A stretch of DNA of 64,000 nt. Source: Dolichospermum flos-aquae CCAP 1403/13F (GTDB taxonomy: Bacteria; Cyanobacteriota; Cyanobacteriia; Cyanobacteriales; Nostocaceae). Positions 36,505-48,212 of the stretch are shown in pieces. Position 1 is the stretch's first letter. The number at the start of each line of letters is the position of its first letter. The notes below the pieces were generated by a model that saw only the letters and a list, made by a program, of their open reading frames with translations, did no database searches and was not told the origin of the DNA. Location of the stretch: contig NZ_CP051206.1 of NCBI RefSeq assembly GCF_012516395.1, forward strand, positions 2,648,501 through 2,712,500, read 5' to 3'. Position numbers and translations under genes: made by a program.

Positions 36505-36900
36505 TCAGGATTTTACTTTTTTTGTGGCCTGTTCAATTATATCTTCAATTTTCTTAATATTCTGATCTCCGGCTAAGTAACCAATACCTCGATGTAAATG
36601 TAAGCGAAATTGCGTAATCAGGGTTTCTCTATCTGTATCTAAGCCGTCGTTGTAGCATCTTTGTTTTAGTGCTAAAAGTAAAATATCGGACATTTCTCCC
36701 CCAAAAACCCGCCATGTCATTTCGACGTTGCTATCTTGGGGAATAGGTACGGGGGAAGGTGCAGCGGTTTCTGCTAGGGAACGACAAAACGCCCACCGAC
36801 ATAATATGTTCCATTGTTCGATTTTGGTGCTGCGTTTGAGTTTGAGGAGTTGTTCTTTGGCTGTTTGGGAGAGTTTGATTCTTTCTATTGGTGATTCCAT
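36505..36900 (-). CDS. dndE: DNA phosphorothioation protein DndE
   Basis: 131 residues, close to the usual DndE length of 110-130. Matching features are the N-terminal IERIKLSQTAKEQLLKLKRSTKIEQWNILCRWAFCRSLAE, then WRVFGGEMSDILLLALKQRC and the C-terminal HLHRGIGYL. DndE is reported to bind nicked DNA and acts with DndC and DndD in replacing a non-bridging phosphate oxygen by sulfur. It is the last dnd gene of the leftward operon, separated from dndD by an HNH gene and its small partner. Confidence 0.92.
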   Translation of the reverse strand: MESPIERIKLSQTAKEQLLKLKRSTKIEQWNILCRWAFCRSLAETAAPSPVPIPQDSNVEMTWRVFGGEMSDILLLALKQRCYNDGLDTDRETLITQFRLHLHRGIGYLAGDQNIKKIEDIIEQATKKVKS

Positions 36901-36942: not shown

Positions 36943-37386
36943 CTATTTTTGAATAGGATCTTCTGGAGGTGGATGACGATTAATAGCTTTATCAGCAGCA
37001 CGAATATTGATAATTCTTTCTCTATTTAAATCTAGTATTCCTATTGTTGCTTTTCCTGTAGGTGTCAAACCAATAATTATTAATCCATCTGTTGACCAGA
37101 TAAAATGTTCATTCCACAGGCTTTTTCTAGGGTTAAATAGTGCAACTTGATTACCAGAATCAGGATCTATTGCTGTGAGATTATTTGATTTTCTGCGGTT
37201 ACAATGAAAACAGGCCAGTGCTAAATTATCTATAGTATTTTTGCCATCTTTACTTAATGGAATTACATGATCTACTGTAAATAATACATATTGCCATTTT
37301 TCTGATGCGTGACAATATTCGCATAATTCTAATGCGCGTTGACGTACTTGCTGCTGAATTGAATCTGTTATTTTCCGACTTGACAC
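36943..37386 (-). CDS. HNH endonuclease inserted in the dnd operon
   Basis: 147 residues from GTG at 37386, 10 bases after the stop of the preceding small gene. The HNH motif is complete: CEYCH (about 22-26), VDHVIPLSKDGKNTIDNLALACFHCNRRKSN with His, Asn and the second zinc CxxC, followed by a C-terminal part (LFNPRKSLWNEHFIWSTDGLIIIGLTPTGKATI) shared by many cyanobacterial solo HNH proteins. It may be part of the Dnd restriction function or a selfish/homing-like gene carried with the small partner. I favour the second because this pair type also occurs apart from dnd genes (from memory). Confidence 0.88.
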   Translation of the reverse strand: MSSRKITDSIQQQVRQRALELCEYCHASEKWQYVLFTVDHVIPLSKDGKNTIDNLALACFHCNRRKSNNLTAIDPDSGNQVALFNPRKSLWNEHFIWSTDGLIIIGLTPTGKATIGILDLNRERIINIRAADKAINRHPPPEDPIQK

Positions 37387-37397
37387 TTTTATATATT

Positions 37398-37679
37398 TTA
37401 GTGGTTTTGATTGTGGGCTAGATTACGGACTATGCGATTTAGAAAACTCAGATAATCATCTATTTCTTCATAACTATCTAATTCTTGTTCTTCTTCTGGT
37501 GTGAGTTGAGAATTTTGTTGTTTAAAAAGTAATGTTTCAATGCGATTCTGGACATTACTAGAAGCACGAAAGATAGGTGTTCCTTCTTGTAACTCGATTG
37601 TGACAGCACCTTCTAAGGGTAAGGTAGCAGGTAAATTATGTAAAGTTGGTAGTAGAGGAATTGTCATATTTAAATCCAT
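37398..37679 (-). CDS. Small acidic partner of the HNH gene
   Basis: 93 residues. N-terminal beta-rich part (LPLEGAVTIELQEGTPIFRASSNVQNRIETLL) and a charged helical end (LTPEEEQELDSYEEIDDYLSFLNRIVRNLAH). It lies 11 bases before the HNH gene and 18 bases after dndD on the same strand. Strongly acidic composition near a nuclease suggests an inhibitor or specificity factor, but there is no direct evidence. I do not recognise a named family. Confidence 0.7.
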   Translation of the reverse strand: MDLNMTIPLLPTLHNLPATLPLEGAVTIELQEGTPIFRASSNVQNRIETLLFKQQNSQLTPEEEQELDSYEEIDDYLSFLNRIVRNLAHNQNH

Positions 37680-37697
37680 GAAATACTAAATAACATT

Positions 37698-39686
37698 TTA
37701 CCAAAAATAACCAGGTTTTATTGTGGTTTCTCTTTTGTTGGAGTTATATTGGAGTAGGTATTCGCGGGCTATGGCTTCGGTTTCTTGGAGGTTTTGATAT
37801 TCTTTTTTGCCGATTTCGGTGTCGGTGGAAAGGAGGATTACTTGATGGCTGGCTGAGGGAAAGTATCTTTCTACTAGGTTGTTGCGGTGGGAGGAGTCTA
37901 GTCTTCCTAATGGGGTGTCTATGGCGATAGGTAAGCGTCTTCCTGATACTTTGGCTAATCCCCACAAAAATGCGATCGCTAATAGTTGTTTTTCACCGGC
38001 GGAAAGCCGATGTTTGGGGACTTGTTTTCCGTTTAAATCATATAATGATAAGCCGAAGGTTTTACTGTCTATAGCTATGCGATGTACTAGGTCTGATTTA
38101 TGTAATAAATATAGAAAACAGTTTTTGACTTCTTCTTCTAATTTATTCAATTTTCTCAAAGTCAATCTTTCTCGAAATACTTTTAATGTTTGTTGAACTT
38201 TTAATGCAGAATCAATAATATGTTCACTATTTTGATATTTGATATTTTGTACAGTATATTCATTTAGTTCTTGTCTCAATTTTTTGGTTTCTGTATCTAA
38301 TTCTATCAGTTTTTGAGTCATTATTTCTGACTGAGATTTAATTTTATTAAATTCAGTTTGTGCTTCTTTTACTGCTTTCTGCAATTTCGTATATTCTTCC
38401 GGTGCAGCCGCAGTTTGTACTTGTCTTTCTAAGGTGAGAATTTCTTCTTCATAATTATTTAATTCATCTAATTGCTTTTGGGCGTTATTTTGAGAAACTT
38501 CTAAACGATAGGTTATATTGTCAAGTAAACTTAAACTTTCTTCATCTCCATTTAACCAATTATTTTCTGTTGATAAGTTATTAGTATATAAGTTATTGAT
38601 ATCTTCTGCTAAAAAAGATTGAATATTAGTAAGTTTATTATTTTCCAGATTTAATTGTTGTAGCCAATTTAGTAATCTTTCATCTCTAGCAATTAAGACA
38701 TCTTTCGCTAATTGGATTTGTTGAGTTTTCAGTTCCTTTTCTCCCTGTCTTTGCACTTGCGATAATAAAGGACTAATCAAAGCTAAAGGTAAAACATCAG
38801 CAGCTAATTCACATAAGGATTCACGGACGTTATTAGCAACTTTGATTTTTTCTTCTCTTTGTTGTTCTAACTGACTACGTTCAGCAGCAATTTTACCACC
38901 TTCATTCACAAATCTATCTAAAGCCTCTTCATGAACTTTTTCTAATTCTGTAACTTCAATATTTAGATTTGCGAGTTTTATCTGATTGTTTTCGTATTCT
39001 GCCTGTTTTTCCTGAAGTCGGGTTTCAATTTCTGCTAATTTTTCTAAATCTTTTGTATCTGCAAATTCTCGTTTTTTGCGATTTACTAATATCTCTAAAT
39101 CAATTGCCAATTTATCAGCTAATTCTAAACCCAAAAGTCCGTTAATAGCATCTACAACTATGGGCGGGGGTATTTCCTGTTCTGCAAGTTCTTTAACTTG
39201 TTCACCGTCAAACAGAAATAAATTAGAAATCCCTATAGGTAAAATATTTTCTATATATTCATCCCAAATATTTACTAATGAATCAATTGGCCATGTTTCA
39301 TCATCTCCTAATATTCCTAATTGGTCTTTTCCGTCTTTAGGATTTTTTTCCCAAGTCCGCACAACCCGATATTTTATAGGTCTATCTTCTTCGATATGTT
39401 CAAAAACTAATTCAATTCTGGTTTTTTCTATAGGGGTACTTTTACTATTTACACATTGGGTTAAAAAATCACTATAACTCAAATTTCCCCTGGTTGAACA
39501 TTGGGCGCGTTGTCCATATAATGCAAGGCGAATGGCATCCATAAGGGTGGTTTTTCCGCCGCCGTTCATTCCTCCTAATAAAATAATTGGACGGGCGTTA
39601 TCTTCGTCAATTTGGGGGTTGAGGTTGATGATTTGTTTACCAGCATAAGGACCGAAGTTTTGCAGGACTAATTCTAGGAAGATCAT
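37698..39686 (-). CDS. dndD: DNA phosphorothioation ATPase DndD
   Basis: 662 residues from the ATG at 39684-39686 (MIFLELVLQNFGPYAGK). An in-frame extension of 40 residues upstream from a TTG is translated repeat DNA (SLFLCVLCASVVR) and is not part of the gene. The SMC/Rad50-like layout is Walker A GGMNGGGKTT at 38-47, LFLFDGEQVKELAEQE near 160, a long coiled coil (about 200-540), an ABC signature KHRLSAGEKQLLAIAFLWGLA near 585 and Walker B LPIAIDTPLGRLDSSHR near 610. DndD supplies the ATP-dependent, DNA-acting part of the sulfur-insertion complex. It is separated from dndC by 210 bases of repeats. Confidence 0.94.
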   Translation of the reverse strand: MIFLELVLQNFGPYAGKQIINLNPQIDEDNARPIILLGGMNGGGKTTLMDAIRLALYGQRAQCSTRGNLSYSDFLTQCVNSKSTPIEKTRIELVFEHIEEDRPIKYRVVRTWEKNPKDGKDQLGILGDDETWPIDSLVNIWDEYIENILPIGISNLFLFDGEQVKELAEQEIPPPIVVDAINGLLGLELADKLAIDLEILVNRKKREFADTKDLEKLAEIETRLQEKQAEYENNQIKLANLNIEVTELEKVHEEALDRFVNEGGKIAAERSQLEQQREEKIKVANNVRESLCELAADVLPLALISPLLSQVQRQGEKELKTQQIQLAKDVLIARDERLLNWLQQLNLENNKLTNIQSFLAEDINNLYTNNLSTENNWLNGDEESLSLLDNITYRLEVSQNNAQKQLDELNNYEEEILTLERQVQTAAAPEEYTKLQKAVKEAQTEFNKIKSQSEIMTQKLIELDTETKKLRQELNEYTVQNIKYQNSEHIIDSALKVQQTLKVFRERLTLRKLNKLEEEVKNCFLYLLHKSDLVHRIAIDSKTFGLSLYDLNGKQVPKHRLSAGEKQLLAIAFLWGLAKVSGRRLPIAIDTPLGRLDSSHRNNLVERYFPSASHQVILLSTDTEIGKKEYQNLQETEAIAREYLLQYNSNKRETTIKPGYFW

Positions 39687-39715
39687 GGGTTTTTGGGTTG
39701 GGTATTCTAGTTTTT

Positions 39716-39768
39716 TTAAACGAACCACAGAGGCACAGAGGACACAGAGAAAGAGAGAAAGGAGATAT
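39716..39768. repeat. AACGAACCACAGAGG dispersed repeat
   Basis: AACGAACCACAGAGGCACAG continues with GACACAGAGAAAGAGAGAAA and GGAGATA. It is almost identical to 51512-51559. Its proximity to dndD creates the false N-terminal extension of that frame. Confidence 0.85.
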
Positions 39769-39772
39769 TTAT

Positions 39773-39881
39773 CTCGTTCCCTGTCTCTGACAGGGAATGC
39801 TGTCAAGAGGCTCTGCCTCGGTTATAATGAGTTGAGGTAGAACCTCAAGATTGGCATTCCCAGCCAGAGGCTAGGAACGAG
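39773..39881. mobile_element. MITE-like palindromic element between dndC and dndD
   Basis: Ends CTCGTTCC (39773) and GGAACGAG (39881), with inner arms GGGAATGC (39793-39800) and GCATTCCC (39854-39861), giving roughly 28-bp imperfect terminal inverted repeats around a short centre. No coding capacity. Confidence 0.6.
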
Positions 39882-39896
39882 GGTGGGGAGGATATT

Positions 39897-41522
39897 CTAT
39901 TGGTCTAGGCTATCATCTGGGTTCTTCTGTGCATATTTGAAGTTAGCCCAAGTTTGTGGTTTACTCTCTTGTTTTTCGGCGGTATCTCCTAAACTTAATT
40001 GTTTGAATTTTTCCCGAATTGTCGCAACATCACCTTCTAATGCTGCTTGTCGTAAATCCCGTTTTAAATGGGCATTTGCGATCGCTTTTTCTGGTGAACG
40101 GGAACTTGTATCAAAGCATTTTTCTAGGCTTTCGTAGATACCCACACGGCGAGTTTTTTTCTTAAATTGTCTTTCTGTATCTAATAGTCTGGCCATTAAT
40201 TCTAGGTGCATTCCGTCACCTTCACAGATTTCTTCTAATACTCCCCATTCATCACTACCAAGTATGCTTTGATCTGCACCAGGACGAGGATCTTTAAATA
40301 CTTCTCCTGTGACTTCTTCGTATATGCGGGGGACACTATCATCAAATTCGTGTTTTTCTTCTAACCATATTCGGCGAATTTCACTCAATTCTGCTTGAGA
40401 AATAAGGGTAATATCGCGCATATTTTCGGGCGCATTTTCACGCATTTCTTTTTGCGCTGTTAATAATTTTCTTAACCAATATTCTCGCCAATATTTTGTA
40501 TATGGACCATGTATAGGTTCAATAGATGCTTCACCATTTACATTACGTTCAAATAATTGAACTTCTCCCCAGATACGACGGAAATCTCTTTTTTCGCGGT
40601 CACGGTCAACATCTAATTCAGCACGAAAATCAACTAATGGTTGTAACCATTCTTTTTCTTCATCATTTTGAATCATTGCTTGCATAGATTTATCACTGTT
40701 AACCAATGTGCAAACCCAGCAACCGAAGCGAGAACTTCCACAACTAGGAGTAGAAGTATCAACAACTAAAGGACATTCATTATCTGCTGTTGCACCTCTA
40801 TACATAGTAAATAAATCTTTATTGCTATATCCCCAAGGGTTTGAAAACTGCATTAAATATAGCCAAACTTCATCAGTTCGCCAATCTTCAATAGGTGTGT
40901 AAAGTAGAGAATTTATCAAATTAGGATGAGGACAAAGACGCTCTCTGACTCGACCTGCTTCACGTTTCATCATTATCAAACCGCGAGTTATGCTTTCAGT
41001 TTTGCGAGTTCCTAAAATAACTATTGTTTCACCATTAGCTCTCACAACGTCACGAATAAAAAGATTAGAAGGCTCAATTTTTAGCCGTCCGGTACACCAG
41101 CGGAATTTATTGCGCGGTGCTGGGTAGCCTTTACCAATTAAACCTGCCCAATATGTTTGTTTAGTTTCTGGTTGCAGCAAATGAGGTTGTATTGGCATTT
41201 TTTGCTCTTCAGCCGCTACTTCCATTTGTTTTAATGAGCTTTTTACCCAAGCAGAAACATAGGGATTTTCTACACCTGTATCTGTCGTAATTACATGAAT
41301 TGGTTTAGTTCTTTTTTCCGCTGGAAGTCCAGAAATTGCATTCCAAATAAGCTGTAAAGTAGCAGTGCTGTCTTTTCCACCTGAATAGCCTACTACCCAA
41401 GGTATCTCATCTAAACAATACAATTCTTGAATTTCTGTCGTCAAAGCTTGGATATACTCCACTAACTCTGGTACAGTACGATTCGGCTGATTTTTATTTT
41501 CTGGCTGTTGTGTTGTAGTCAT
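39897..41522 (-). CDS. dndC: DNA phosphorothioation sulfurtransferase DndC
   Basis: 541 residues, PAPS-reductase/ATP-pyrophosphatase fold. The PP-loop SGGKDST is at 47-53 (VVGYSGGKDSTATLQLIW). Iron-sulfur cysteines are likely among CTGRLKIEPSNLFIRD, the DNECPLVVDTSTPSCGSSRFGCWVC segment (about 245-272) and neighbours. DndC activates the target and transfers sulfur with DndD/DndE; the sulfur donor is usually DndA or the housekeeping IscS. No dndA is present, so IscS or another cysteine desulfurase must serve. First gene of the leftward dnd operon, divergent from dndB. Confidence 0.96.
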   Translation of the reverse strand: MTTTQQPENKNQPNRTVPELVEYIQALTTEIQELYCLDEIPWVVGYSGGKDSTATLQLIWNAISGLPAEKRTKPIHVITTDTGVENPYVSAWVKSSLKQMEVAAEEQKMPIQPHLLQPETKQTYWAGLIGKGYPAPRNKFRWCTGRLKIEPSNLFIRDVVRANGETIVILGTRKTESITRGLIMMKREAGRVRERLCPHPNLINSLLYTPIEDWRTDEVWLYLMQFSNPWGYSNKDLFTMYRGATADNECPLVVDTSTPSCGSSRFGCWVCTLVNSDKSMQAMIQNDEEKEWLQPLVDFRAELDVDRDREKRDFRRIWGEVQLFERNVNGEASIEPIHGPYTKYWREYWLRKLLTAQKEMRENAPENMRDITLISQAELSEIRRIWLEEKHEFDDSVPRIYEEVTGEVFKDPRPGADQSILGSDEWGVLEEICEGDGMHLELMARLLDTERQFKKKTRRVGIYESLEKCFDTSSRSPEKAIANAHLKRDLRQAALEGDVATIREKFKQLSLGDTAEKQESKPQTWANFKYAQKNPDDSLDQ

Positions 41523-41702: not shown

Positions 41703-43301
41703 ATGAATGATAATACAGATACACTCAATAATCAACTCGCTAACGAGTATTTAGAACGGGAAAATCAGGATAAACAGGTATTAGCTTTACTGCTAGACAG
41801 GTTTTTAGAGAAAAAAGACCAAATTCTTGTCCAAAAAACAGAAATGGGTGGTACGGAGGCTTATGTAGGTTCTGTGACATTGGAATGGTTCGCGGGACGG
41901 GTACATTTTGCGTCTGGTTTACCCCTGCTGCAAAAAAAGTACAACCCAGAGACAGAGAATATTGAAATTGACGCTGATAGTATTGATGACATTCAACAAC
42001 GTCCTGTTGATTGGTCGCGTCAAGCACCGTTAGTACAGTATTTAGCAGCGAGGAAAAATCATAAATTTCCGGCTGTGTTGGTGGTAATTAATCAACCTTG
42101 GGTAGATAACCCCAAAGCAGCGGAGTGGGATAGTCAAGGACGGGCTAAAAAAGCGACGACTGATTTTATACCTTTAGATAAAGATGGTAAAGTCGGTTTA
42201 CTGAATATTTCTGAAGACAATGTGACAATTTATGCTTTAGATGGTCAGCATAGATTAATGGGTGTCCAAGGTTTAATGGAGTTAATTAAATCAGGTAAAC
42301 TGCAACGTTATAAAAAGGATAAAACTGCTGATGATAGTTTTATTACCTTATCTGATTTGATTGAGAAATATCAAGTAGAACCTGCTTATTTACAAAGTTT
42401 ATCTAAAGAAAAAATTGGCATTGAATTTATTTGTGCGGTGAATACCGGGGAAACTCATACAGAAGCAAAACGACGGGTAAGATCCATTTTTGTTCATGTA
42501 AATTTAATGGCTGCACCTTTAACTAAAGGTCAGTTAGCACAATTAAATGAAGATGATGGTTTTGCTATTGTAGCGCGAAAAATTGCCGTTACACATCCAC
42601 TTTTAGAACAAAAACCCAATCGCAATCCCCGTGTTAATTGGAATAGTGCCACAGTAGCCGCTAATTCTACGGTTTTGACGACCTTGCAAGCCTTACAAGA
42701 TATGTCTGAAAGGTATTTGGGGCAAAAGTTCCCCCACTGGAAACCTTTGGAAAAAGGGTTAATTCCCATGCGTCCAGAAAATGAAGAAATTCAGGAAGGA
42801 ATTGCCGATTTTAGATTACTTTTTGATAATTTAGCGAATCTTCCCAGTTATAAAATATTGGAACACGAAGATACAACTGTTTTGCGGCGCTTCCATTTTG
42901 AAAAAGACGGAGGTGAGGGAAATATGTTATTTCGTCCAGTTTCTCAAGTTGCTTTAGCGCAAGCTTTGGGAACTTTGGTATTTAAAAAAGATTTTCCTTT
43001 GACGGATATTTTTAAGAAGTTGGAGAAATTTGACCGTCAAGGGGGTTTTAGTAGTATGGAATATCCTCAATCTATATGGTATGGGGTTTTATATGACCCC
43101 AATAAAAAGCGGGTACAGGTAGTAGGAAAAGATTTAGCTGTGAAGTTATTCATTTATATGTTGGGAGGAATGACTGAAAAAATGGAAGTTACGGCTTTAC
43201 GTAAAGCTTTAGCTAATGCTAGGACAATGGAAGAACAAACTATAGGTTTTGATGGAAAATTGGTAAAACCGCAAGATGTAGGACTTCCGATTATTTTATA
43301 A
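41703..43301 (+). CDS. dndB: DGQHR-domain protein, DndB-like regulator
   Basis: 532 residues with the diagnostic DGQHR motif at 180-184 (IYALDGQHRLMGVQG), preceded by VGSVTLEWFAGRVHFASGLPL and followed by FVHVNLMAAPLTKGQLAQLNEDD. DndB proteins regulate the dnd cluster; typical ones are around 360 residues, so this one is longer, mainly by a C-terminal part of about 150 residues (LFRPVSQVALAQALGTLVF onward). It is divergent from dndC. The gene symbol is by family and context; the DGQHR family also includes proteins outside Dnd loci. Confidence 0.85.
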   Translation: MNDNTDTLNNQLANEYLERENQDKQVLALLLDRFLEKKDQILVQKTEMGGTEAYVGSVTLEWFAGRVHFASGLPLLQKKYNPETENIEIDADSIDDIQQRPVDWSRQAPLVQYLAARKNHKFPAVLVVINQPWVDNPKAAEWDSQGRAKKATTDFIPLDKDGKVGLLNISEDNVTIYALDGQHRLMGVQGLMELIKSGKLQRYKKDKTADDSFITLSDLIEKYQVEPAYLQSLSKEKIGIEFICAVNTGETHTEAKRRVRSIFVHVNLMAAPLTKGQLAQLNEDDGFAIVARKIAVTHPLLEQKPNRNPRVNWNSATVAANSTVLTTLQALQDMSERYLGQKFPHWKPLEKGLIPMRPENEEIQEGIADFRLLFDNLANLPSYKILEHEDTTVLRRFHFEKDGGEGNMLFRPVSQVALAQALGTLVFKKDFPLTDIFKKLEKFDRQGGFSSMEYPQSIWYGVLYDPNKKRVQVVGKDLAVKLFIYMLGGMTEKMEVTALRKALANARTMEEQTIGFDGKLVKPQDVGLPIIL

Positions 43302-43311
43302 TAATAGCTAA

Positions 43312-44250
43312 TTATGGCTGAAATATATGATGACGATGCCATTGTAAAGCTTCAATATCTGGAAAATATTTCTCCACTTTCGGTAATATGAGTATTTCCC
43401 CATGAAATTCTGTTATTGTTCTAGCATGGGGAGATACTTCTTCTAATTCTTTACTAACGATTATTTTGTATTTATCATCAACGGCAAACCAACCCCTATC
43501 AAAAGCCCAATGATGATTTTTACAAAGTGCTATTCCGTTATGTATTCTACTGTCATAAAAAGCAGAAAATGGCTTTATATGTGCGCCGTCAACAATATTT
43601 TGATTACCAGTTTTAGTAACTTTCAACCCACAAAAAGCGCATTGACAATCATATACAGAAACAACCGCTTTTCTAAAGAAAGCATTTCTAATTAGTGTTT
43701 TTTTTAAACTCCATTTAGGGTTGTTAGGTAAATTTTCAATATCATCTAGCTTTTCTACTTCTGGATAATCTTGAAAAGTTTGATTAATTTGTAAAAATTC
43801 TTCAATTTCATCTTCATTATCCGAGAAAAAAGCGGCTACAAGTGCATCAATTAATTCTTTTCGAGAAGATTCATCTTGTAAATAGTTAAATAATTCACTG
43901 TCTAAATATGCGTATTCAACAGCCTGTTTTAATTGGTTAGTTGTTTTTGGTTGTAAATTATTAAAACCTGCTTTAATTTCTACGTGCCAAAATCTCTCAC
44001 TTTGCAGATGAAAAAATGGATAGTGTAAACCCCCTTTATAAGATTGTGAGCCAATAACATTCCAATATTTATTAAAAGCTTGAATTAATTCATCTGAGAC
44101 AAAAATTTGATTATTGGTAATAACTCCTCTCATAATCAAATCAATTACGGTTAAAAGTAATATTGGTTTATATTGAGCATTACCACGTTTTCGGCTACTA
44201 CTTACTTTTAACTTAGAAAACTTTTCACAATAAAAACGAAGACTATTCAT
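43312..44250 (-). CDS. HNH endonuclease with apparent N-terminal sulfur-binding domain
   Basis: 312 residues. The C-terminal half is an HNH_2-type nuclease: CQCAFCG at 202-208, DGAHIKPFS at 221-229, Asn238 and His246/247, with Cys243 completing a zinc site. The N-terminal half (about 20-170) has AQYKPILLLTVIDLI and LHYPFFHLQSERFWHV, resembling the (H/Y)KPLLLL and YPFW-L-W pattern of the DNA sulfur-binding domain of ScoMcrA-type enzymes, including a Tyr-Pro pair (77-78) like the one in the sulfur pocket. This architecture belongs to type IV enzymes that cut phosphorothioated DNA. Convergent with dndB (10-bp gap). Domain identity is from memory of the motif pattern. Confidence 0.75.
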   Translation of the reverse strand: MNSLRFYCEKFSKLKVSSSRKRGNAQYKPILLLTVIDLIMRGVITNNQIFVSDELIQAFNKYWNVIGSQSYKGGLHYPFFHLQSERFWHVEIKAGFNNLQPKTTNQLKQAVEYAYLDSELFNYLQDESSRKELIDALVAAFFSDNEDEIEEFLQINQTFQDYPEVEKLDDIENLPNNPKWSLKKTLIRNAFFRKAVVSVYDCQCAFCGLKVTKTGNQNIVDGAHIKPFSAFYDSRIHNGIALCKNHHWAFDRGWFAVDDKYKIIVSKELEEVSPHARTITEFHGEILILPKVEKYFPDIEALQWHRHHIFQP

Positions 44251-44285: not shown

Positions 44286-44759
44286 TTATTTTAAAAATCT
44301 AGTTAAATTAAATTCTCCTTCTATATTATTTTCTTGATAATCTATTGCTTTTCTTAAAATCAATAGAAATTGTATTTCATAATCAACAACTCCGCGCAAT
44401 TCACTTTGTAATATTTCTAATCCCCCATTAGCATACTCTTCAAATACTTGAGTCCGTTTATCCTCATATACATCTTCTCTAGAAGCAAGTATTTGGATAT
44501 CACTTGTCTCAACAATTCCTAATAATTTGATAATTTTGTCATAACCCAGTGAAGCAAAATTTTCTTGTGGAATTGGAGAAGGCTCTCTTTTTGTAGTATC
44601 TCCCAGAGGAACACTTTTTTTATACTTTACTCCTAATGCTGCCGCAAATATCATCACCTCCACATAAGTTTGGAAAAGTCCCGGTGTTTCCTTAGACGCT
44701 AGTAACGACTTCACCAACTCAGCCTTATCCTGAGCAATTTTGATTCTATTTGCAGCCAT
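44286..44759 (-). CDS. Dnd-associated protein 4 homologue
   Basis: 157 residues from the ATG at 44759 (MAANRIKIAQDKAELVKSLL); an ATG 36 bases upstream gives a less typical start. FQTYVEVMIFAAALGVKYKKSVPLG and ILQSELRGVVDYEIQFLLILRKAIDYQ match what I recall of the family annotated as dnd system-associated protein 4 (TIGR04062). No catalytic motif is visible; it is largely helical. It lies 35 bases upstream of the sulfur-binding HNH gene on the same strand, suggesting a shared restriction-side role. Assignment from memory, moderately sure. Confidence 0.7.
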   Translation of the reverse strand: MAANRIKIAQDKAELVKSLLASKETPGLFQTYVEVMIFAAALGVKYKKSVPLGDTTKREPSPIPQENFASLGYDKIIKLLGIVETSDIQILASREDVYEDKRTQVFEEYANGGLEILQSELRGVVDYEIQFLLILRKAIDYQENNIEGEFNLTRFLK

Positions 44760-44830
44760 AATTATAAAATATACACCCTTAACATCATAAACCAAACCTA
44801 ACTTACTAATACCATACTCTCACACTCCTC

Positions 44831-44863: not shown

Positions 44864-45424
44864 TCAAAAAACATCCTCATAAACCAAAGAAAGAGGAAAC
44901 GTAAAATCAACACTAACTAAATGTACATTATCACCCTCAACAAAAGGATGTAACTCCCATAAACCCCTATCATTTAGGCGAAAACAATCCAAACCGATTT
45001 TATCAGCACTAATTAAAACATATTCCTGCAAAGTTTGAATCCGTCTATATAGCTGAAACTTACCCCCCCTATCATAAGCCTCCGTACTCGGAGAAAGCAC
45101 CTCAACAATTAAACTAGGAAATTGAATAAACTTAATCGCTTTTTTATCTTTAGGGTGACAACTAACAACAACATCAGGATAAGTAAACGGACCTGTGTCA
45201 GACACACCTACTTTTGCATCAGCAATATTAACACGACACTTACTACCTTTTAAATGATTTTTTAACCCAGAAGCTAAATTAAAAGCAACATCATTATGGG
45301 GAATAGTTCCCCCAGTCATAGCAAAAACTTCACCATTGATATATTCATATTTAATATCTTGCTGTTCCTCCCACTCCAAATACTCCAGAGGACTCATATA
45401 ACTTTTCTCAAAATTAGCAACCAT
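44864..45424 (-). CDS. Uma2 family protein
   Basis: 186 residues. Uma2 landmarks: MSPLEYLEWEEQQDIKYEYINGEVFAMTGGT, PYPDVVV-like TYPDVVVSC, LIVEVLSPSTEAYDRGGKFQLYRRI and LQEYVLIS, giving the D, E and K of the PD-(D/E)XK core. It is preceded on the same strand by another Uma2 gene (33-bp gap) inside the Dnd-associated block. Whether these two are functional parts of the defence block or later insertions is unknown; they are flanked by repeat copies on both sides (44831 and 46102), which favours insertion. Confidence 0.88.
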   Translation of the reverse strand: MVANFEKSYMSPLEYLEWEEQQDIKYEYINGEVFAMTGGTIPHNDVAFNLASGLKNHLKGSKCRVNIADAKVGVSDTGPFTYPDVVVSCHPKDKKAIKFIQFPSLIVEVLSPSTEAYDRGGKFQLYRRIQTLQEYVLISADKIGLDCFRLNDRGLWELHPFVEGDNVHLVSVDFTFPLSLVYEDVF

Positions 45425-45456: not shown

Positions 45457-46095
45457 TTAACTAAAAATTTGCAACAACCAGCGATTAACTTCACCATCAT
45501 CTTGAGTTAAACTGCGTTGAATAGCTTCTTGAATAGTAGATATTTGCAAACCTGGTAAAACCTTTGATTCCTCAATTCTCCTACTTCCACCATCAATAAT
45601 TTCAAAAGCAATAATATCATTATTATTAGCATTCATTACCCAATATTCTTTCACCCCCAACCGTTCATAGAGTAATCGCTTAAAACCCAAATCATCATTA
45701 ATAGAAGAAACAGCAACTTCCACAACTAAAGTCGGTGCTGCTAACTCATTAATATTGACAGGAGAATTATTCAAAGGTGGAAATGTTACCTTATCCCCAA
45801 TATAAAAAGCTAAATCAGGTTGACATTCTGCTTCACTTATTCTGCGAAAACTGGTATTTACCCAACCTTTAATCTTAATATTTTTCAATGTCGCATAAAA
45901 ATTCACAACATTTGCAACAACATTATTATTGTTTCCATGAATTGAACCAACAGGTAAAATTTCTACCCTCATGTAATTTTGATAAAAATAAAATCGTCCT
46001 TGCTGATAATCAGAATGTTCAGCAACTTCCATAAACTCATCCCAACTCACACTTACCCACGTATCCGTCACCAAACCTAAAGAACTAATAACCAT
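45457..46095 (-). CDS. Uma2 family protein
   Basis: 212 residues. VSWDEFMEVAEHSDYQQGRFYFYQNYMRVEILP opens the domain; AECQPDLAFYIGDKV, LVVEVAVSSINDDLGFKRLLYERLGVKEYWVMNANNN carries the acidic and lysine positions. It belongs to a different Uma2 subgroup from its neighbour. C-terminal residues (EAIQRSLTQDDGEVNRWLLQIF) resemble the usual helical end. Same strand as its neighbours; function unknown. Confidence 0.88.
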   Translation of the reverse strand: MVISSLGLVTDTWVSVSWDEFMEVAEHSDYQQGRFYFYQNYMRVEILPVGSIHGNNNNVVANVVNFYATLKNIKIKGWVNTSFRRISEAECQPDLAFYIGDKVTFPPLNNSPVNINELAAPTLVVEVAVSSINDDLGFKRLLYERLGVKEYWVMNANNNDIIAFEIIDGGSRRIEESKVLPGLQISTIQEAIQRSLTQDDGEVNRWLLQIFS

Positions 46096-46142: not shown

Positions 46143-48212
46143 CTACCGTTCAACCTCAACAATTTCCGTATATTCAAAACCATTCAAACTCTGACGCACC
46201 AAAGCATATCTTTCCCTCCCCAACTCAATAAAATCCTGTTCACAATTAGGCTTAGAAGAATAATAAACCAAAACATATTCCTTCCCAACCTTATCAGCAA
46301 TTTCCTCCTCAACCTCCACCCGCCATTGCGTCTTAGTCACCAACACAACCAACTGATTTGCTAACTTAGGAATAGTTCGCGCAATGTGACGACGAGAATT
46401 AACATCTAAACTCCCAAAAGGAGAATCCATAACAATCGGAAAAGTGCTACTCTCAGGAAGCATGATCATTTTCCGCTTCTCACTCCAGTCGCGCACCTTA
46501 TCAATAATACTAGCGATAAAAGATAAACTGAGAACTTGATTTTCTCCCGTAGAAGCTGCAACTGGTGCTTCAATTCCCGTCGTATTTTCCACCAAACTCA
46601 ACTCATACTTTTCGCTAATTTTGGGAACATAAGGAGTAAAAGAAATATCTGAGAAAATTTCCTGTACTCGCTGTTCCAATTGGAGACGAAACTGATTTTC
46701 TTGACGGTTTTTAACTTCCGATAATCTGTCGATTGCATCTTGAGTAGCATTAATGCGACGCTGTGCTAAAGATTGTTTTTCCTCATTTTGTTTTTGCTTA
46801 GATATTTGTTTTATCAAAGCATCAATAGCTGTTTTTAGATGAGAAACTTCCTGTTGATTTGCACCTTGTTCTCGATTTAAGTCATCAATTTTAGCTTCAA
46901 TTTCATCAAGACGTTTTTGTAAACTACTAATTTCCTCATTGGGATCTTTTCGGAGTTGTTCTTGAATAGTTGCTAATTCCAATTCAACTTGATTAAGATT
47001 TTCTCGTAACTGTTGAATTCGTACTTGTTCCCTGTCCGCTTCTTCCCAAAAAGCAACTGCTTGTTTATCAATTTCATCAACTTGCGCGCTCATTCTAATT
47101 GCGGTTTCTTCTACAGTCGAAGAACCAGATTTTCTCATTAAATTCTTGACATGAAAATGGGTGTGAGTTCCTTCCCTTAAATCTGCACCACAAATACAAC
47201 GTCCAGTATTGAGTAAATCATTGATAAATTCCCGCGAAATTCCCGCAGTTAATTCACCTTTTTGTTTTAAATCTGTAAATATTTCCCGAAACTTAGCGGT
47301 AGTTTCCGATAACAGAACAGTATAACCCCGTGCGGAAATAACCTTTTTCAAATTCTCCCGTGTTTTTTTCAACTCTTCCCGCAAACTATCTTTTTGAGAT
47401 TCTAAACTTTGCTTTCTTTCCTGTAATTCTTTAACAGCAGTCAATTCTCGTAACTTATTACTAACTTCCTTTTTAAAAATTTGCTGACATTCCAACTCTT
47501 GATTTATTTCCGTTTGACGTTTATTAATATTGTCAATTTCCAGTTCTTGCTTTCCTTGCTGATTCAACAACTGTTTAGTTTCCGCGTCACCAATATGTTT
47601 TAACTCAGTTTCTAAACTCTTTTTAGCATCTTTCAAGTGTTTAATCGAAAGTTCAATAACTTCCACACCCAAAAAAGTTCTAATGGCTTCAGAAATTTCC
47701 GCTTTATTATCAGAACGGACAATTTCTTCAATCCGTTCACCGTCAAAGAAAAAATATTGATGTAAACTTGCTGGTAAAATCTGAGTAATAATTTCCTCAG
47801 CTTGTTGAAGAGGAAAATACCATTTTCCATCATCTCCAGCAACTTGAATTTTTAACTGAGTTTTCCCAGCTTCGATTACATCACTTTCATTTTTATAAAC
47901 CCGACAACCACGAGTAGCGCGATAACGATTACCTTCATGTTCCCAACCAACTTCCACCCAACATTCCACAGGTTGACTAGGTTGAGATTCTGAAATTGCG
48001 CGTTTATTTACTAACTGTTCCGTTGACGCAAAAGCCGCACTAAATTTTTCATATAAAACCCAAGTAAACGCATTCAAAATACTAGTTTTACCTGCACCAT
48101 TACTACCATAAATCATCGTAGTATTGCGAACATCTCCACCAGCCAAAGTTATCTCTGGAGTTTTCCCATAAAAAGAACGAAAATTACATAATTTAATCGA
48201 AGTTAGCTTCAT
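46143..48212 (-). CDS. SMC/DndD-like ATPase of the second Dnd-associated block
   Basis: 689 residues, distinct from the dndD at 37698-39686. Walker A GSNGAGKTS is at 36-44, ASTEQLVNKR follows, YFFFDGERIEEIV near 155, coiled-coil arms (about 200-520) that meet near a CICGADL apex (CxC, about 333) where Rad50/DndD proteins have a hook, an ABC signature ASTGENQVLSLSF near 563 and Walker B FPIVMDSPFGSLDVNSR near 608. The family's FDGE and SMC layout make it a paralogue of DndD. Its start ATG overlaps the stop of the 57-aa gene (ATGA), indicating tight coupling. A role as DNA sensor or motor for the nuclease part is inference. Confidence 0.85.
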   Translation of the reverse strand: MKLTSIKLCNFRSFYGKTPEITLAGGDVRNTTMIYGSNGAGKTSILNAFTWVLYEKFSAAFASTEQLVNKRAISESQPSQPVECWVEVGWEHEGNRYRATRGCRVYKNESDVIEAGKTQLKIQVAGDDGKWYFPLQQAEEIITQILPASLHQYFFFDGERIEEIVRSDNKAEISEAIRTFLGVEVIELSIKHLKDAKKSLETELKHIGDAETKQLLNQQGKQELEIDNINKRQTEINQELECQQIFKKEVSNKLRELTAVKELQERKQSLESQKDSLREELKKTRENLKKVISARGYTVLLSETTAKFREIFTDLKQKGELTAGISREFINDLLNTGRCICGADLREGTHTHFHVKNLMRKSGSSTVEETAIRMSAQVDEIDKQAVAFWEEADREQVRIQQLRENLNQVELELATIQEQLRKDPNEEISSLQKRLDEIEAKIDDLNREQGANQQEVSHLKTAIDALIKQISKQKQNEEKQSLAQRRINATQDAIDRLSEVKNRQENQFRLQLEQRVQEIFSDISFTPYVPKISEKYELSLVENTTGIEAPVAASTGENQVLSLSFIASIIDKVRDWSEKRKMIMLPESSTFPIVMDSPFGSLDVNSRRHIARTIPKLANQLVVLVTKTQWRVEVEEEIADKVGKEYVLVYYSSKPNCEQDFIELGRERYALVRQSLNGFEYTEIVEVER

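Follow-up and report, generated by a model that had tools for sequence, protein, structure and literature searches.

A sulfur-binding HNH nuclease encoded within cyanobacterial dnd loci as a candidate partner of DNA phosphorothioation

Introduction

Nucleases that join a DNA sulfur-binding domain (SBD) to an HNH domain cleave DNA near phosphorothioate (PT) sites (PMC7461809), and co-expression of ScoMcrA with the dnd modification genes is reported to cause cell death (PMC3009677). According to Lutz et al. (2020), less than 3.6% of predicted PT-dependent enzymes lie near dnd, and the two are described as "rarely coupled" (PMC7461809). The coupling of such a nuclease to dnd is nevertheless not new as such, since Rakesh et al. 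(2024) already described wHTH(SBD)+SAD(SRA)+HNH proteins in dnd loci (698 taxa), with a suggested part in restriction or suicide (PMC10853773); the word "cyanobacteria" does not occur in the main text of that paper.

Other described systems read PT and attack DNA that lacks it, as reported for SspE (PMC9646914) and DndI (PMC11662687). The archaeal Pbe system is described as requiring PT in trans and as harmless without dnd; cleavage of viral DNA was not seen according to the same account (PMC6459918). For cyanobacteria, Jian et al. (2021) report no PT restriction systems and regard dnd as probably having served first as an antioxidant (PMC8569181). In a non-exhaustive search of freely accessible literature, we found no account of an SBD-HNH nuclease in cyanobacterial dnd loci.

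The dnd locus of Dolichospermum flos-aquae and its SBD-HNH protein

The DNA analyzed here is a stretch of 64,000 nucleotides from Dolichospermum flos-aquae CCAP 1403/13F (NZ_CP051206.1, positions 2,648,501 to 2,712,500), referred to as the window, and coordinates are those of the window unless a contig or locus is named. A gene on the minus strand (43312..44250) encodes a protein of 312 aa, for which the original prediction had claimed an N-terminal SBD, an intact C-terminal HNH domain and a place beside DNA sulfur-modification genes. All three claims hold. Both a profile and a fold match place an SBD at residues 2-144, and an HNH fold occupies residues 185-312, with H224, N238 and H247 present together with Cys204, Cys207 and Cys243. 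Between them lies a low-confidence linker (approximately residues 163-184), and about 40 residues separate the two alignments. By Pfam, HNH_2 is the sole match in the window protein and is present in 48/48 family members, the Pfam SBD model matches no family member, and the window chain carries no NTPase domain (including DUF262). No SRA/SAD domain was found between SBD and HNH in the 48 members, among the Pfam families listed (25 of 29). The protein misses the cut-off of NCBIfam NF045808 (PT-DNA-binding restriction endonuclease; 122 bits against 180), as do five relatives (102-151 bits). From its sequence the gene product is predicted to be a PT reader-nuclease composed of an SBD, a linker and an HNH domain, without SRA.

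By alignment, the putative sulfur cavity of the window SBD comprises Y27, K28, Y77, P78 and H81, and includes the basic residue or Q and the YP or LP pair that were looked for. The corresponding cavities are reported as H116, R117, Y164, P165 and A168 in ScoMcrA (PMC6224610) and as Y31, Q32, Y78, P79 and A82 in SprMcrA (PMC7470945). Y27 matches Y31 of SprMcrA, Y77 and P78 match Y164 and P165 of ScoMcrA, and K28 and H81 match SBDHga. Each of these letters is present in some SBD solved with PT-DNA; the full combination was not seen in any solved SBD compared. Profile match, fold match and cavity alignment together rule out a mere chance resemblance to an SBD. Among 76 intact rows (the window protein and 75 named relatives), position 78 is P in 74 and position 28 is K in 65 and Q in 11, while position 27 is Y in 42, H in 20 and N in 14, and position 77 is Y in 50, L in 18, Q in five, I in two and a gap in one. 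The HNH residues are kept nearly throughout (H224 in 75/76; N238, H247 and the three cysteines in 76/76).

The modification core of the locus lies on the same strand, with DndC (39897..41522; TIGR03183, 695.6 bits against a cut-off of 290.4), DndD (37698..39806; TIGR03185, 716.8 against 245.85) and DndE (36505..36900; TIGR03184, 136.4 against 71.85; Pfam DndE, E 5.6e-45) all above their NCBIfam cut-offs. A DndB/DGQHR protein with the DGQHR motif is encoded on the plus strand (41703..43301), convergent with the SBD-HNH gene and 10 bp from it (Pfam PF14072, 43.7 bits against 29.1; TIGR03187, 197 against 58.85); its listed NCBIfam matches do not include the DndB equivalog TIGR03233. The best genome match to a dedicated DndA reaches 437 bits against a cut-off of 480, and the genome holds several further cysteine desulfurase-like matches; IscS is reported to be able to stand in for DndA (PMC11662687). 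Judged by these genes, the host seems to be a PT maker that modifies its own DNA.

On the other side of the SBD-HNH gene, 35 bp upstream and also on the minus strand, lies the gene for dnd-associated protein 4 (A4; 44286..44795, or 44286-44759 from an ATG start; TIGR04062). Its profile gave no match among PDB sequences, and its relationship was found by fold instead: the fold is DndE-like, making A4 the probable counterpart of PbeD. Farther along the minus strand, a CxC-type ABC ATPase (46143..48212) carries a GRCICG motif and scores under the DndD cut-off; PADLOC assigns it to PbeC (E 0), an assignment to be read with the caveat that a PbeC model matches DndD too. Two accessory ORFs of the same gene run and strand (44864-45424 and 45457-46095), which we take to be Uma2-like, differ in presence among loci. 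Two further minus-strand genes lie between dndD and dndE, in an interval (36943-37679) whose content only few relatives share. One encodes a stand-alone second HNH protein (36943..37386; Pfam HNH, E 2.3e-16) belonging to a cluster of four ORFs across the compared loci, the other a 93-aa protein (37398..37679) without a Pfam, NCBIfam or PADLOC match and with homologues in two other loci.

The window protein resembles PT-dependent SBD-HNH enzymes (SprMcrA, EcoWI and kin) in SBD fold, cavity residues, HNH domain, domain order and lack of SRA, and differs from them in lying inside the dnd operon of a predicted PT maker and under the NF045808 cut-off. ScoMcrA-type wHTH-SRA-HNH enzymes have an SRA/SAD domain that is absent here. 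With the proteins of Rakesh et al. it shares an SBD-HNH nuclease in a dnd neighbourhood, but it has no SRA and is paired with the DndE-like A4. The locus also resembles PbeABCD (Xiong et al. 2019), a PT-requiring system described with dnd, a CxC ATPase (PbeC), the DndE-like PbeD (152 aa) and a PbeA-like TIGR04095 helicase. Unlike the locus, that account names no SBD protein among the four Pbe proteins, and in D. flos-aquae the TIGR04095 helicase gene is not in the cluster but about 700 kb from it (C1:1985776). SspE is likewise a PT reader fused to an HNH nuclease and encoded with a PT writer; it is described as having its own DGQQR NTPase domain, whereas here separate genes encode the ATPases and DndB, the protein with the DGQHR motif. 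DndI, which we liken by its description only, is a PT-sensing nickase coupled to DndBCDE, with its own ATPase activity and co-transcription with dndFGH.

Distribution in cyanobacterial genomes

Across 388 cyanobacterial genomes, protein matches were obtained in 105, and 24 of these with fewer than 60 SBD residues covered were dropped. An SBD match was thus retained in 81 genomes and dndC was found in 77, with both present in 33 (Fisher p 6e-7). In 27 of these 33 the two genes lie within 6.4 kb of each other, always on the same strand, a linkage with a chance of about 1e-64 under random placement in 5 Mb. The observation of an SBD-type nuclease beside dnd genes is confirmed and extends well beyond the window, and the original prediction withstands both checks that could have refuted it, namely the search for an SBD by profile and fold and the survey for co-occurrence with dnd. 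Of the 27 linked genomes, 22 have both genes intact (at least 290 aa for SBD-HNH and at least 480 aa for DndC), and one of the two is shortened or broken in the remaining five; an SBD-HNH ORF of at least 290 aa is present in 24.

The association is not obligatory in either direction, as an SBD match is lacking in 44 of the 77 dndC genomes and 48 genomes carry SBD genes without a dndC match. At eight same-genus loci, SBD-HNH was present in four and missing from the same slot in four; three of the latter genomes have no SBD match at all and the fourth (G205) has an unlinked copy. Four loci without SBD-HNH (L080, L089, L090, L091) carry a second, short DndB of 391-412 aa between A4 and DndB. That SBD-HNH and the second short DndB exclude each other in this slot was considered and rejected: several Nostocales fit, whereas the layout with SBD-HNH before dndC does not.

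A search for SspD covered 49 genomes (the 48 SBD genomes without dndC, and G000), and all seven positives (G012, G024, G137, G149, G307, G342, G359) were among the 48. In these genomes an Ssp writer and a PT reader may occur together, and a few SBD genomes without dndC may make PT via Ssp.

Locus architecture, phylogeny and selection

A contig scan confirmed 250 relatives, the best 80 of which were analyzed. These were ranked by similarity to a query from a dnd-linked gene, and linked genes rank first for that reason. All of these best 80 have a dndC, A4 or CxC match within 10-kb flanks. The fetched stretch contains dndC in 76 of them, in every case on the strand of SBD-HNH and with a product at least 59% identical to the window DndC. 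Of the four exceptions, three (L097, L123, L128) reach a contig end within about 1.4 kb; the fourth is L167, which has the same row as G137 and whose genome gave no dndC match. Two layouts were distinguished: dndB or other genes separate SBD-HNH from dndC in 43 loci, and SBD-HNH stands immediately upstream of dndC in 33, with a median gap of 30 bp by match boundaries. Neighbour labels were taken from single-linkage clusters and rechecked with single reference proteins, which among the best 80 loci gave dndC in 76, dndB in 62, dndD in 58, A4 in 57, dndE in 48, CxC in 46 and the helicase in 38 fetched stretches. DndB or short DndB was a nearest labelled neighbour in 63/80 and A4 in 49/80. A scan of viral contigs yielded 66 stretches that fit a search pattern, with no relative among them.

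Two further types of neighbour were observed. In other cyanobacteria, SBD-HNH is directly preceded upstream by a gene for an SBD alone (166-197 aa, without HNH), at L053:10662-11162, L063:642-1211, L069:8587-9117 and L070:9623-10216. In these four, the cavity lid position 77 is R or K and not Y, L or Q, so that the stand-alone SBD may read a non-sulfur feature or protect sites. With a loose filter, 21 genomes are found, one of which (G231) looks like a single broken gene. The second neighbour is an HTH protein of 73-82 aa and a possible regulator, encoded convergently with SBD-HNH, with ends overlapping by 4 bp, where Nostocales carry dndB (L047:6195-6416, L049:10403-10624, L051:9952-10173, L063:2164-2412, L069:10064-10294).

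In the tree, one clade of 71 rows (support 100/100) is dnd-linked throughout, with dndC seen in 68 and the other three ending at contig ends, and the locus layout switched at least twice inside it. The other side of the tree holds 13 rows labelled "unlinked", a set that includes two Pseudanabaena-type genes nested in a linked group, and five linked Pseudanabaena-type rows. SBD-HNH is under purifying selection, with dN/dS of 0.07-0.35 in 15 pairs. The ORF is intact (at least 295 aa) in 75 of the best 80 relatives and shortened or broken in five (broken single copies include L100, L120, L137, L160 and L170), and SBD-HNH and DndC are both intact in 68. General decay of the gene is ruled out by these intact relatives, by the ORF lengths in the linked survey genomes and by the dN/dS values. 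Pairwise distances of SBD-HNH correlate with those of DndC (rho 0.70) and DndD (0.76) below the 0.94 found between DndC and DndD, indicating that SBD-HNH travels with the locus, less strictly than the core does.

Candidate restriction partners of cyanobacterial dnd

The original prediction had proposed that the nuclease could replace DndFGH. A search for DndF, the only component of DndFGH covered, gave no match in the D. flos-aquae genome (0/1) or in the 77 dndC genomes, and the model recovered its positive control (E. coli H240, 1/1). This part of the proposal agrees with the data. In contrast, a Pbe-type TIGR04095 helicase is present in 73/77 dndC genomes (67 above cut-off) and A4 in 68/77, compared with an SBD match in 33 and an SBD gene beside dndC in 27. 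The frequencies of helicase and A4 rule out SBD-HNH as the only or the general substitute for DndFGH. More likely, the general restriction partner of cyanobacterial dnd is a Pbe-type module, to which SBD-HNH adds an optional effector.

A4 is encoded directly upstream of the SBD gene on the same strand in 21 of the 68 A4-bearing dndC genomes. The same arrangement occurs in 11 of 15 A4-bearing genomes without a dndC match, which were found among 52 protein-matching genomes without dndC (48 of these 52 being the SBD genomes without dndC). In L066 (G333) and L063 (G099) the A4-SBD-HNH pair is on a different contig from dndC, accompanied in L066 by CxC and helicase genes, which points to a module separable from dndCDE.

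Discussion

A PT cutter encoded by a PT maker should be a paradox, as the original prediction rightly expected. Type IV enzymes are taken to be excluded from dnd hosts, and this is not so here, where dndC, dndD and dndE share the locus and 27 surveyed genomes show the linkage. Since SBD-HNH enzymes cut near PT and ScoMcrA kills dnd+ cells, the two can persist together in one operon only if the nuclease is under a switch or if its sequence motif and that of the host do not match. A switch is favoured by the gene's position within the modification operon, by purifying selection and by the precedents of SspE, DndI and Pbe; the varying cavity residues and the context preference of SBDs favour a mismatch. 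Because many related species keep both genes side by side, it is probable that the enzyme works under control, as a defence partner of sulfur marking and not as a poison to it.

The reading we tentatively favour, at somewhat less than even odds, is that the enzyme works like SspE and DndI, as a gated PT reader-nuclease built into the operon of a Dnd and Pbe-type defence. SBD-HNH would be the effector of a combined system of Dnd (BCDE) and Pbe-type components (CxC ATPase, DndE-like A4, TIGR04095 helicase), in which the PT marks of the host would serve as a licence and not as the target. The SBD would dock on self PT sites, the HNH domain would be restrained or redirected by an NTPase encoded alongside (the CxC ATPase with A4, or DndB), and cutting would then be directed at unmodified incoming DNA, much as SspE and DndI couple PT sensing to the nicking of non-PT DNA. 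Gating by A4 or by the CxC ATPase, which the original prediction had suggested, would be plausible. Observed directly are the two domains with their residues, a linkage to dnd and to A4 that is stable and co-directional, and purifying selection; the licence role of the host marks is inferred beyond these. Against it, SBD-HNH has no NTPase domain of its own, unlike SspE, and it is optional, being without a match in 44/77 dndC genomes. One of the two genes is broken or shortened in five linked genomes, as is the SBD-HNH gene in five of the 80 relatives. Moreover, the distances of SBD-HNH track DndC less closely than DndC tracks DndD, and for the 11 genomes with A4-SBD and no dndC match a plain type IV role would suffice. 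Nor is any SBD-HNH enzyme so far characterised known to us to spare PT-DNA: ScoMcrA is lethal together with dnd, and SBD-HNH enzymes cut near PT sites.

The strongest competitor, which we consider unlikely without dismissing it, is an insulated type IV enzyme whose SBD reads PT only in contexts that the host Dnd leaves unmodified, so that foreign PT-DNA (rival dnd systems, PT-marked plasmids or phages) is destroyed and self is spared, the linkage reflecting clustering of defence genes. Sequence preferences have been reported for SBDs (PMC7470945), insulation is among the explanations proposed for rare dnd-PTDR neighbours (PMC7461809), cavity positions 27 and 77 vary within the family, and sister genes exist in the 48 genomes without a dndC match and account for much of the tree's other side. 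The 71-row clade, however, is dnd-linked throughout, and in the 33 loci of the second layout the gene closely precedes dndC on its strand, where an enzyme against foreign PT would have no evident reason to sit in a modification operon; the mismatch would also have to outlast every change of Dnd specificity.

Less probable again is a gated suicide effector that cuts the PT-marked chromosome of its own cell only upon infection, sensed by CxC-A4 or DndB, and thereby kills the infected cell. The lethality of ScoMcrA in dnd+ cells (PMC3009677) and the suicide role that Rakesh et al. suggest for some dnd-locus nucleases (PMC10853773) are compatible with it, as are the genes of possible regulators (A4, DndB, HTH c6) that flank SBD-HNH. 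Yet no universal antitoxin-like partner emerges, DndB or short DndB being a nearest labelled neighbour at 63/80 loci and A4 at 49/80.

It is improbable that the reader has been lost and the SBD is an ordinary DNA-binding domain of a PT-independent nuclease. The missed NF045808 cut-off and the L, Q or I at position 77 and N at position 27 in parts of the family could be taken that way, but the cavity proline is almost invariant, position 28 is K or Q in 76/76 intact rows, and SBDHga, which by alignment also has L at the position equivalent to 77, was solved bound to PT-DNA. Chance hitchhiking of a functionally unconnected neighbour in a defence island, to which the gene's absence from the slot in four of eight same-genus genomes might point, is strongly contradicted by adjacency in 27/33 genomes with both genes, by the shared strand in 27/27 linked genomes and 76/76 named relatives, and by a gene that moved at least twice inside the dnd locus and never out of it.

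Returning to the gated reader-nuclease, a more specific version is a "split SspE", in which the PT licence would be read by a separate SBD-HNH protein and the nuclease switched by neighbouring NTPases (CxC with A4, or DndB); we regard this version as rather doubtful, though worth stating for what it would entail. If it is true, it would supply Pbe-type systems with a nuclease that reads PT, which is not known from archaeal PbeABCD, and a domain pair that destroys PT-DNA elsewhere would have been turned into a self-sparing restriction arm.

These findings bear on two published statements. SBD-HNH nucleases are described as unable to coexist with dnd, from the case of ScoMcrA, and as only rarely coupled to it, whereas within this cyanobacterial clade of 71 rows linkage to dnd is the rule, and how a PT maker keeps a PT cutter becomes a directly testable question. 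Furthermore, the helicase, CxC/A4 and SBD-HNH genes argue against PT restriction being absent from cyanobacteria, and the presence of the TIGR04095 helicase in 73 and of an SBD gene in 33 of the 77 cyanobacterial dndC genomes bears on the view that dnd probably served there first as an antioxidant system.
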